64,000 bases of DNA, taken from NCBI GenBank assembly GCA_017307375.1, contig JAFKFH010000004.1:186001-250000 (forward strand), given 5' to 3'. Below the pieces are notes generated by a model, which made no database searches, was not told the DNA's origin, and saw only the letters and a program-made list of their open reading frames with translations. A program made the position numbers and the translations under genes. Of the stretch, positions 52,937 to 56,515 are shown one piece after another. This DNA comes from Alphaproteobacteria bacterium. GTDB taxonomy: Bacteria > Pseudomonadota > Alphaproteobacteria > Ferrovibrionales > Ferrovibrionaceae. The first letter of the stretch is position 1. Each line of letters starts with the position of its first letter.

Positions 52937-54514
52937 TCAGGTTTCCGGCGTCAGGGCCGTCGACCAGACTTCCCGGCCGTCGATGTCGTGCAGCGACATG
53001 GTCAGCACGTTGGTCCGGGCATCGAGCCTGCCGCGGCCGAAGAACTGCAGGCCGTCCGCCGGCGAGCGATTCTGTTTCATCCCCTCGGGGATGCCGACGA
53101 AGCGGACGTCCGGCCCGAAGGTCGGGTCGATCGCGCCGGGGCCGAAGGTGCCGGCATTCAGCGGCCCGGCGACGATCTCCCAGAACGGCTTGAACTCGGC
53201 AAAGCCCGCCGCCTTTGCGGGATCGTAGTAGGTGGCCGACGGATAGTGCACGTCGGCGGTGACCCAGACGACATTGCGGATGTTGTTGTCGCGGATGAAC
53301 TTGAGCAGCAGCGCCAGCTCGAGCTCGCGGCCGAGCGGCTTGCCCGGCTCGCCGTTGGCCCAGGCCTCGAACGTGCCCTTCTCGACATCCGGGTTGCCAT
53401 CGGGCACGACGATCGAGATCGGCATGTCGCTGGCGATCACCTTCCAGGTCGCGCGCGAGCGCTTCAGCCGTGTCTTCAGCCAGTCGATCTGGTCGGCGCC
53501 CAGGAAGGCCGCGCCGCCTTCCTCGCGGTTGGGGGTGTTGGGGCCCCGATAGCTGCGCTCGTCCAGCATGAAGACGTCGAGGCCGGGGCCGAAGGCGAAA
53601 CTGCGATAGAGCCGCTCCGGATCGAACGGATCGCGGCGGATCGGATTGAAGTCGAACATCGCCCGGCGGGCGCGGGCCGCCAGCAGCGAGGCGTCCCGCT
53701 GCTGATAGCGCTGGTCGCCGATGGTCTGTCCGGGGAACCAGTTGTTGCGGACTTCGTGGTCGTCCCACTGCACCAGGAAAGGCACGTCGGCGGCGAAGCG
53801 CCGCTTGTTCTCGTCCATCAGGTTGTAGGCGAAGGCGCCGCGAAAGTCGGCGACCGTCTCGCAGACCTTCGACTTCGCCTCGGTGACGACGTTCTTCCAG
53901 ATCGTGCCGTCGTCGAGCTTCACTTCCGCCTGCAGCGGCCCGTCGGCATAGATCTGGTCGCCCGAGTGAATGAAGAAGTCGGGCTGCTGCCGCCGCATCG
54001 CCTCATAGAGGCGATAGCCGCCGCGTTCCGGGTTGATGCCCCAGCCCTGGCCGGCCTCGTCGCCGGAGAAGACGAACGTCACGTCGCGCCGCTCCTCGCG
54101 GGCGGGGACGACGATGCGCCCGGTCAGCGCTTCGGACCGGATGGCGGCATCGCCGACATCCTGGAACTGGACGCGGTAGAAGATCGTCTGGCCCTGCGGC
54201 AGACCGGCCAGTTCGACCCGGGCGGTATGGTCGGATTCAGGCAGCGCCACCTCGCCGGTGACACGATGGACGTCGCGAAAGGCCTCCGTCGTCGACCACT
54301 CGACCAGCATCTGGGCCGGGCGGTCGCTGCGGCTCCAGATCACCGCGCGGTCGCCGTCGATGTCGCCTGCCATGATGCCCGACGGCAGCAACGGCCGGCG
54401 CCGCTCGGCCGTCACTACGGCCGGCGCCTGGGCGCGCAGGATCCGCGGGACGGCAAGGCCGGCGGTACCGGCGGCGGCACCGACGAGGAAACGACGACGA
54501 CTGGCACGGGACAT
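52937..54514 (-). CDS. phoD: Alkaline phosphatase D-type phosphoesterase
   Basis: 525 residues from ATG 54514 with AGGAGG upstream. Tat signal SRRRFLVGAAAGTAGLAVP. PhoD N-terminal domain (LPSGIMAGDIDGDRAVIWSR) and metallophosphatase residues in FVFSGDEAGQGWGI, FFIHSGDQIYADGP, VQWDDHEVRNNWFPGQT, WVTADVHYPSATYYDP. Hydrolyses phosphodi- or monoesters in the periplasm, with Ca2+/Fe3+ in known members. Downstream of the manganese exporter by 88 bp; shared transcription is uncertain. No Pho box was seen. Confidence 0.92.
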   Translation of the reverse strand: MSRASRRRFLVGAAAGTAGLAVPRILRAQAPAVVTAERRRPLLPSGIMAGDIDGDRAVIWSRSDRPAQMLVEWSTTEAFRDVHRVTGEVALPESDHTARVELAGLPQGQTIFYRVQFQDVGDAAIRSEALTGRIVVPAREERRDVTFVFSGDEAGQGWGINPERGGYRLYEAMRRQQPDFFIHSGDQIYADGPLQAEVKLDDGTIWKNVVTEAKSKVCETVADFRGAFAYNLMDENKRRFAADVPFLVQWDDHEVRNNWFPGQTIGDQRYQQRDASLLAARARRAMFDFNPIRRDPFDPERLYRSFAFGPGLDVFMLDERSYRGPNTPNREEGGAAFLGADQIDWLKTRLKRSRATWKVIASDMPISIVVPDGNPDVEKGTFEAWANGEPGKPLGRELELALLLKFIRDNNIRNVVWVTADVHYPSATYYDPAKAAGFAEFKPFWEIVAGPLNAGTFGPGAIDPTFGPDVRFVGIPEGMKQNRSPADGLQFFGRGRLDARTNVLTMSLHDIDGREVWSTALTPET

Positions 54515-54602: not shown

Positions 54603-55226
54603 CTACCAGACCTGGAACAAGGTCATCACCCCGATCAGCGCAAACAGCAGCGCCGCACCGCGACGGATCCAGCCCAGCGGCAGGCGGCCGGCAAAACGAT
54701 GACCGAGCCAGATTGCCGGCAGGTTGGCGAGCGCCATGCCGACCGTGGTGCCGACGACCACGGCGACGAGCGAGTCGGCACGGGCAGCCAGCGCCACGGT
54801 GGCCAATTGCGTCTTGTCGCCGATCTCGGCCAGGAAGAAGGCGACCACGGTGGTGACGAACGGCCCCCAGGCGCTCAGCCGCGACAGCAGCGTCTCCTCG
54901 CCGTCCTGGTCGAGCTTGTCGGGGATCAGCGCCCATCCCGCCATGGCCAGGAACGACAGCCCGATCAGCCAGCGCAGGATTTCCGGGCCGAGCAGGGCGG
55001 AAAGCCAGCCGCCGGCCGCGCCGGCGATGGCATGGTTGAACAGGGTGGCGGCGATCATGCCCCAGGCGATCGGCCAGGGGCGGCGGAAGCGGGCGGCGAG
55101 CACCAGGGCGAGCAACTGGGTCTTGTCGCCGATCTCGGCGATGGTGACGGTTGCGGCCGACAGGGCGAAGTCGCCGAGCCCGAGATGCGAAAGGGTCAGG
55201 GCCGACGGCAGGGCGATGGCTTGCAT
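54603..55226 (-). CDS. GDT1/TMEM165-family manganese exporter
   Basis: 207 residues, six predicted membrane segments in two inverted repeats. Each repeat carries the family signature E-x-G-D-K-T/S: TIAEIGDKTQLLALVLAARF and FFLAEIGDKTQLATVALAAR. Bacterial members (MneA/MntX-type) export Mn2+. A Mn2+ riboswitch (yybP-ykoY class) lies directly upstream, which independently supports this role. Translation starts at ATG 55226; the leader from the aptamer to the ATG is about 80 nt and no strong Shine-Dalgarno is seen. Part of the metal-homeostasis theme in the window. Confidence 0.93.
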   Translation of the reverse strand: MQAIALPSALTLSHLGLGDFALSAATVTIAEIGDKTQLLALVLAARFRRPWPIAWGMIAATLFNHAIAGAAGGWLSALLGPEILRWLIGLSFLAMAGWALIPDKLDQDGEETLLSRLSAWGPFVTTVVAFFLAEIGDKTQLATVALAARADSLVAVVVGTTVGMALANLPAIWLGHRFAGRLPLGWIRRGAALLFALIGVMTLFQVW

Positions 55227-55245
55227 TTGGCTACGCTTGGGTCGT

Positions 55246-55311
55246 GGGGACAGGCGCATGAACCAATGACAGCGATGCGCCGCCCATCCCCGGATGCGCG
55301 GCATCGCTGTC
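55246..55311 (-). promoter_or_regulatory. Expression platform of the Mn riboswitch
   Basis: On the minus strand: an 11-bp perfect stem GACAGCGATGC (55311-55301) / GCATCGCTGTC (55278-55268), whose first three bases GAC (55311-55309) are also the end of aptamer helix P1. Further on, CCTGTCCCC (55254-55246) is the exact complement of GGGGACAGG inside the aptamer (55348-55340). No T-run follows the stem, so control may be at translation or through alternative pairing rather than by intrinsic termination. Confidence 0.6.
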
Positions 55312-55441
55312 AAAGGTCTCGCCAGAACCGCCGGGTGAACCTGTCCCCGGCGCCTCATGCGCGCCATGGCGCCGGTCGCCCGGCAGCCAAGTCTGTTGAC
55401 GCACATCCCGCTGGAGTTGCGGAAGGCTACTCCCCAATGAC
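55309..55441 (-). ncRNA. yybP-ykoY manganese riboswitch aptamer
   Basis: Read on the minus strand the 5' end has GTCATTGGGGAGTAGCC (55441-55425), containing the hallmark GGGGAGUAG loop. Then comes GTCAACAGACTTGGC (55400-55386), close to the CAACAUACU loop of the second leg, and the 3' end is GGCGAGACCTTTGAC, matching the conserved GCAAGACCUUU close. Bases GTCA/TGAC and GG/CC of the two ends can form helix P1. These are the defining features of the yybP-ykoY class, which binds Mn2+ between the two docked loops and turns on Mn exporters. It lies 82 bp upstream of a GDT1 exporter. One loop base differs (G for U in CAACAGACU). Confidence 0.85.
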
Positions 55442-55471
55442 GCGGCGGACGCTAAGGCCTTCGTCCGCCGC
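55442..55471 (-). other. GC-rich hairpin after the oxidoreductase gene
   Basis: Perfect 10-bp stem GCGGCGGACG / CGTCCGCCGC, 10-nt loop, starting 21 nt after the oxidoreductase stop and ending next to the aptamer. No T-tract, so a weak terminator or an insulator between the upstream gene and the riboswitch. Confidence 0.5.
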
Positions 55472-55492: not shown

Positions 55493-56515
55493 TCAGTTAT
55501 CCGAAACTTCGATCACCAGCTTGCCGAAGTTGCGGCCTTCGAGCAGGCCGATGAACGCTTCCGGCGCGTTTTCGAGCCCGCGCACGATATCCTCGCGATA
55601 GCGCAGCCGGCCGCTGGCGATCCAGCCGGCCATGTCGCGATAGAAGGCGGGGCGCTGGTCGGCGAACTCGCGCTGAATGAAGCCGCGCAGCGTCAGGCTC
55701 TTGGAGAGCACGTCGCGCATGACCACGGGCAGACGGTCGGGACCGGGGAAGTCGCCGGTCGCATTGTACTGGGCGATCAGGCCGCAGACCGGGATGCGCG
55801 CGAACTCGTTCAACAGCGGGAAGACCGCGTCCCAGACCGCGCCGCCGACATTCTCGAAATAGACGTCGATGCCGTTGGGGCAGGCGGTCGCCAGTCGGGC
55901 AGCAAAATCGGGCGCGCGATGGTCGATGGCGTCGTCGAAGCCGAGGTCGCGCACGAACGCGCATTTGTCGGCACCGCCGGCGATGCCGACGGCGCGCGCG
56001 CCGTGGATGCGCGCGATCTGGCCGACCGCCGAACCGACGGGGCCGGAGGCCGCCGCGACCACGACGGTCTCGCCGGATTTGGGTTTCCCGATGGTCAGCA
56101 GCCCGGCATAGGCGGTGAAGCCGGGCATGCCGAGCACGCCCAGCGCCGTCGAGACCGGGGCCGCGTCGGGATCGAGCTTGCGCAGCGCGGCGCCGTCGGC
56201 CACGGCGTGGGTCTGCCAGCCGGAATGAGACAGGACGATGTCGCCGACCGCGAAGTCGGGATGGCGTGTGGCCAGGACGCGGCCAACCGTGCCGCCTTCC
56301 ATCACGGCACCCAGTTCGACCGGCTTGGCGTAGGAGCGCGCGGCACTCATCCGTCCGCGCATGTAGGGGTCGAGCGAGAGGTATCTGATGCCAAGCAGCA
56401 CCTGACCCTCGGCGGGCGAAGGGATCGGCACTTCCTCAAGACGGAAATCGTCGGGTGTCGGTTTTCCGTTCGGCCGGGCGGCAAGGACGATCCGGCGGTT
56501 GAGGGCGTCACTCAT
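55493..56515 (-). CDS. NADP-dependent oxidoreductase (CurA/leukotriene B4 12-hydroxydehydrogenase type)
   Basis: 340 residues from ATG 56515 with AGGAAG upstream. Medium-chain dehydrogenase without zinc ligands: RYLSLDPYMRGRMSAARSYA, ALGVLGMPGFTAYAGLLTIG, nucleotide site VVVAAASGPVGSAVGQIARI and FENVGGAVWDAVFPLL. Reduces double bonds of enones with NADPH. No obvious functional tie to its neighbours. Confidence 0.93.
   Translation of the reverse strand: MSDALNRRIVLAARPNGKPTPDDFRLEEVPIPSPAEGQVLLGIRYLSLDPYMRGRMSAARSYAKPVELGAVMEGGTVGRVLATRHPDFAVGDIVLSHSGWQTHAVADGAALRKLDPDAAPVSTALGVLGMPGFTAYAGLLTIGKPKSGETVVVAAASGPVGSAVGQIARIHGARAVGIAGGADKCAFVRDLGFDDAIDHRAPDFAARLATACPNGIDVYFENVGGAVWDAVFPLLNEFARIPVCGLIAQYNATGDFPGPDRLPVVMRDVLSKSLTLRGFIQREFADQRPAFYRDMAGWIASGRLRYREDIVRGLENAPEAFIGLLEGRNFGKLVIEVSDN

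Follow-up and report, generated by a model that had tools for sequence, protein, structure and literature searches.

A predicted manganese riboswitch upstream of a putative GDT1-family exporter gene in an alphaproteobacterium, with a second helix interleaved in its leader

Results

Genes and features at the locus

We analyzed a 64-kb stretch of an alphaproteobacterial genome (hereafter, the window), whose minus strand carries a predicted riboswitch aptamer, a leader with two further helices, and a gene of the GDT1/UPF0016 family (Table 1). The translated gene scored 144.6 bits against PF01169 (Pfam cut-off 27), and the protein has two repeats and two EIGDKT motifs that fit the pattern E-x-G-D-(K/R)-(T/S), in agreement with the original prediction made from the letters of the window, which had named a TMEM165/GDT1-type product with two such motifs. 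A search for solved structures resembling this protein by sequence found none. We placed the start codon at the AUG at position 55226, 83 nt beyond the P1 3' strand, because the distance to the start is nearly constant in relatives: about 75–102 nt separate GAGACC from the start codon in almost every GDT1 locus.

The gene is flanked upstream by a gene for an NADPH-dependent curcumin/dihydrocurcumin reductase-type enzyme (55493-56512, minus strand; NCBIfam 552 bits, cut-off 440) and downstream by one for a PhoD-like phosphatase (52937-54514, minus strand). The interval from the reductase gene to the riboswitch contains, directly upstream of P1, a perfect 9-bp inverted repeat (CGGCGGACG-N10-CGTCCGCCG, 55443-55470), the exact form of which is unique in the genome. 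This repeat could terminate the upstream transcript or overlap the promoter; its role as a repeated operator was rejected, with 11 near matches compared to 24 in the reversed control.

Table 1 Features of the predicted riboswitch, its leader and the downstream gene (positions in the window)
Feature	Positions	Strand	Sequence	Basis
yybP-ykoY (RF00080) predicted Mn2+ riboswitch aptamer	55293..55448	-		cmscan, 51.6 bits
P1 5' strand	55434..55441	-	GUCAUUGG	Sequence; a-pairing positions exceed shuffles in relatives
L1 motif	55427..55435	-	GGGGAGUAG (GGGGAGTAG)	Sequence; aligned to conserved consensus
L3 motif	55390..55400	-	GUCAACAGACU (GTCAACAGACT)	Sequence; consensus alignment; 141-locus tally; PMC6754395 for structural roles
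P1 3' strand, common to P1 and the competing hairpin	55309..55316	-	CCUUUGAC	Sequence; pairs with P1 5' strand or a'
Strand a	55301..55312	-	UGACAGCGAUGC	12-bp perfect helix with a'; covariation in 81 leaders
Strand b	55281..55291	-	GGGGAUGGGCG	11-bp helix with b'; b-b' covariation in 81 leaders
Strand a'	55267..55278	-	GCAUCGCUGUCA	Helix search; covariation in 81 leaders
Strand b'	55246..55256	-	CGCCUGUCCCC	Helix search; covariation; ends 19 nt before start codon
GDT1/UPF0016 divalent cation/H+ antiporter (putative Mn2+ exporter), 207 aa	54603..55226	-		PF01169, E 1.1e-42

A yybP-ykoY aptamer

The original prediction had assigned the RNA to the yybP-ykoY class and named a covariance search as its check, with a score below the family threshold as the outcome that would speak against it. 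Using cmscan with Rfam, we obtained a match to RF00080 (Manganese, yybP-ykoY) at 55448-55293 of the minus strand with 51.6 bits, where 45 is the gathering score, and the assignment holds. This was the sole Rfam match in the window (64 kb scanned with 4227 families; E 8.3e-11), and a search of the whole 7.54-Mb genome returned one RF00080 match only (E 2.3e-12). The three conserved blocks, GGGGAGTAG, GTCAACAGACT and GCGAGACCTTTGAC, were all located on the minus strand as predicted, the third at 55322-55309. The ends form helix P1 by pairing of GTCA-TT-GG (55441-55434) with CC-TT-TGAC (55316-55309), and the span first proposed for the element, 55309-55441, runs exactly from one P1 strand to the other. 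Folding of the full leader is 4 sd more favorable than that of its dinucleotide shuffles. With L1 (GGGGAGUAG), an L3 CAACA containing the Mn-sensing A, a P1 switch helix with a competing strand downstream, and a position upstream of a PF01169 GDT1 membrane transport gene, the RNA has all the defining features of the yybP-ykoY class for which a sequence can be examined, and the locus is a further example of that class, ordinary as a riboswitch.

Four overlapping sets were searched for RF00080, namely 116 relatives, 18 genomes from the order, 385 from the class and 398 from the phylum; within the order, 12 of the 18 genomes carry it. A gene with the E-x-G-D-K-T motif follows RF00080 in 106 of the 141 proteobacterial loci with readable motifs; by inspection, the remaining loci mostly lie before genes for MntP-like or other membrane proteins.

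The variable base of loop L3

One loop base was also predicted to depart from CAACAUACU, to touch the metal site and possibly to change metal selectivity. The departure is real, since L3 reads CAACAGACU here and differs from CAACAUACU at G55393, the variable base next to the Mn-sensing A (A55394), which is kept. It is not rare, though: in the tally of 141 RF00080 loci from Proteobacteria, CAACA is followed by U in 59, G in 41, C in 35 and A in 6, and among the alphaproteobacterial loci sampled G is the most frequent (34/69). The sensing A, by comparison, is retained in 140 of the 141 loci and in the present RNA.

The supposed contact with the metal was not borne out. In the crystal structure of the X. 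oryzae RNA, with the loop ACA48-U49-ACU52, Mn2+ is held by phosphates and by N7 of A48, the sensing group, while U49 forms the U-turn and is not the sensing base (PMC6754395). In X. oryzae numbering, A48 corresponds to A55394 and is kept, and U49 is replaced by G. The L. lactis RNA has a different loop sequence at the same place and identical metal contacts (PMC6754395). A shift of selectivity through G55393, for example towards another divalent ion, could be argued from the position of this base, which lies beside the sensing A and gives the L3 turn its shape, yet we consider it extremely improbable: loci with different bases lie mostly upstream of the same exporter types, those bearing G largely precede the same GDT1 genes, and the metal is contacted by phosphates and by the A before this base, in the same way in two structures that differ in the loop. 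The 141-locus tally and the published structures led us to discard altered selectivity, and G55393 is a neutral natural variant, ordinary in relatives.

Two interleaved helices downstream of the aptamer

Downstream of the aptamer, the elements follow one another in the order a (which starts in the P1 3' strand), b, a', b' and start codon. Strands a and a' form a perfect 12-bp helix equalled by none of 100 shuffles of this leader, and a' is followed by the UUGG that also occurs in the P1 5' strand. Strands b and b' form an 11-bp helix, as good as which were 2 of 100 shuffles. Among 104 leaders, a-a' and b-b' interleave (a-b-a'-b') in 90; b-b' is rare in shuffles (≤5/100) for 86, and a-a', in a search restricted to ungapped helices, for 58. 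The same helix search at non-GDT1 loci, where start codons are less certain, gave a mixed picture, with 14 of 35 at ≤5/100 shuffles.

We examined covariation in A1, a structure-blind MAFFT alignment of 81 proteobacterial leaders with <75% identity. For a-a', 83.5% of cells were paired, with two-sided changes in all nine pairs. Taken jointly, a-a' and b-b' had 83.0% of cells paired compared to 66.9 ± 0.8 in shuffled alignments, and a covariation score of 0.455 compared to 0.210, with none of 500 shuffles as good. For b-b' alone the values were 82.4% compared to 73.8 ± 0.8 for pairing and 0.287 compared to 0.180 ± 0.010 for covariation, the latter again reached by 0 of 500 shuffles. These shuffles ignore relatedness, and slides and an alignment-free test therefore matter. 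When slid by one column, pairing fell to 42-46% for the two helices jointly and to 51-57% for b-b'. In the alignment-free test, 35 of the 77 loci had a b' strand whose fit was equalled by no more than 5% of the b' strands from other loci. RNAalifold recovered only a 4-bp core of a-a' from the platform alignment, probably because interleaved helices and indels defeat the program.

The aptamer, the exporter gene and the competing hairpin with its covariation can be read from the sequences themselves. P1 and a-a' are mutually exclusive because both the P1 5' strand and a' pair with one and the same set of nucleotides in a, which agrees with the published model of strand invasion. In relatives, pairing of the a nucleotides with the P1 5' strand exceeds the shuffle mean at positions -1, -2 and -3, beyond which the pairs are mostly constant; the tendency of a' to resemble the P1 5' strand of its own locus more than those of other loci was weak, with means of 6.1 and 5.8 of 10 identities. 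The interleaved arrangement (here 55246-55316, minus strand) is conserved in Alpha-, Beta- and Gammaproteobacteria. Most of the sampled GDT1 leaders from Proteobacteria contain helix b-b', and inspection places it before a number of mntP genes too. Ending next to the ribosome-binding region, it is a conserved part of the expression platform in Proteobacteria.

These data bear on whether the leader could work by plain transcription attenuation, with a-a' acting as a terminator and b-b' as an incidental structure of GC-rich leaders. Such a mode would suit the Xanthomonas and Bordetella members, which are described as transcriptional, and some gammaproteobacterial leaders that are U-rich after a'. 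We nonetheless regard it as unlikely, as at least five U in the 8 nt after a' occur in 11 of 104 leaders (2 of 61 in the alphaproteobacterial set), and the covariation of b-b' lies above all shuffles and slides. In the present leader, where we looked for a GC-rich hairpin followed by a U-tract, there is no intrinsic-terminator-like site, a' being followed by UUGGUUCAUG, and an intrinsic terminator was rejected as the expression platform here. Nor does the sequence of this leader contain a clear Shine-Dalgarno sequence. Control here may run through Rho, through initiation or through both.

Predicted folds of the leaders

According to a folding program that cannot score pseudoknots, 90 of 104 leaders form b-b' in their predicted fold if strand a is withheld, which mimics the Mn-bound state, and 51 do so if a is free. 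A role of b-b' as a latch of the ON state, removing b from the a-a' hairpin, is therefore favored. In the present leader with a withheld, b-b' is near-isoenergetic with alternatives (-27.1 vs -25.8 kcal/mol); it lies outside the predicted minimum here, and the latch step therefore rests on the relatives.

The opposite role for b-b' was also weighed, in which it would act in the OFF state: with b near the loop of the a-a' hairpin, b' would pair with it as an H-type pseudoknot, the stack beside the ribosome-binding region would block initiation, and Mn2+ would dismantle it by returning a to P1; this differs from our preferred explanation solely in the role of b-b'. The geometry would suit it: the two helices interleave and both covary, the a'-to-b' gap has a median of 10 nt, and b' ends a median of 14 nt before the start codon, adjoining Shine-Dalgarno-like motifs in the leaders that have them. 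The E. coli mntP leader, with the order a, b, a', b' by inspection, has its ribosome-binding site masked without Mn2+ (PMC11647493). The more frequent prediction of b-b' with a sequestered points the other way, with the reservation on pseudoknots given above, and in the present leader the apical stem of the a-a' hairpin uses up part of b. The folding energies of this leader do not discriminate between latch and pseudoknot. An OFF-state pseudoknot is in our view possible, if rather doubtful.

In the minimum-energy fold of the whole leader, the L1 strand UGGGGA (55431-55436) pairs with the C-run of b' (about 55245-55250, minus strand). Pairing of a freed L1 GGGG with this C-run is a possible third use of an aptamer strand in the predicted folds.

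Discussion

We propose with high confidence that the locus encodes a Mn2+ ON riboswitch of the yybP-ykoY class that controls a putative GDT1-family Mn2+ exporter, in which P1 competes with a-a', a conserved helix b-b' probably holds the ON state, and G55393 is neutral. In the presence of Mn2+, L1 and L3 would dock around the ion held by A55394 and stabilize P1, so that its 3' strand, the beginning of a, stays in place and expression proceeds. In the absence of Mn2+, a would pair with the longer downstream a', breaking P1 and lowering expression by termination, by Rho or by blocked initiation. The most likely role of b-b' is to withdraw b from the apical portion of the a-a' hairpin once P1 has prevailed, which would hold the ON state.

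That the RNA works as a Mn2+ ON switch is the most likely reading by analogy, and both this direction and the competition between P1 and a-a' are drawn from X. oryzae, B. pertussis, E. coli mntP and Vibrio mneA. In X. oryzae, P1.1 is stabilized by Mn2+ against strand invasion (PMC6754395). The yebN leader of that organism (PDB 6N2V, PMC6754395) resembles the present one in its L1 and L3 motifs, in its invariant sensing A and in a P1 switch helix that competes with a downstream strand, whereas it has U rather than G after the sensing A, controls YebN rather than preceding GDT1, and differs from the present leader, which has no recognizable U-tract after the competing hairpin. The riboswitch-controlled exporter of B. 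pertussis is induced by Mn2+, and its transcripts end early without the ion (PMC8546581); we liken this gene, BP3410, to ours by description, its Mn2+ induction being experimental and that of our locus predicted.

When Mn2+ is lacking, the E. coli mntP leader has its ribosome-binding site masked, and transcription is terminated by Rho (PMC11647493). This leader (PMC11647493, PMC9603457) shares the aptamer class and, by inspection, the a-b-a'-b' order, but its target belongs to the MntP family rather than GDT1 and its platform contains extra sequence. A RefSeq hypothetical protein annotated inside this E. coli riboswitch (L150, 304-426) is probably a spurious open reading frame. The Vibrio protein MneA, of the TMEM165/UPF0016 type, is Mn-induced and encoded downstream of a yybP-ykoY riboswitch (PMC13274385); it comes from a distant organism and is likened to ours by protein family and riboswitch class, not by leader sequence. 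From MneA and from the riboswitch, Mn2+ export is the putative function of the GDT1 protein described here.

In the literature searched, which leaves aside the founding 2015 papers (PMC4376352, PMC4703321), neither a pseudoknot nor a second helix in the platform turned up for this class. Helix b-b', interleaved with a-a', may not have been described before, and we make no claim of priority. We suggest tentatively, at a little less than even chances, that the two interleaved helices are an undescribed platform shared by proteobacterial Mn2+ riboswitches, a latch or pseudoknot that acts at more than one level of expression and that may hold the decision after Mn2+ has left.

As a riboswitch, the locus extends a widespread class by one alphaproteobacterial genome, and its analysis removes a false lead on metal selectivity. 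The wider point lies in the expression platform, where a second, strongly covarying helix is interleaved with the switching hairpin; this helix could help to account for the action of a single aptamer at both the transcriptional and the translational level.
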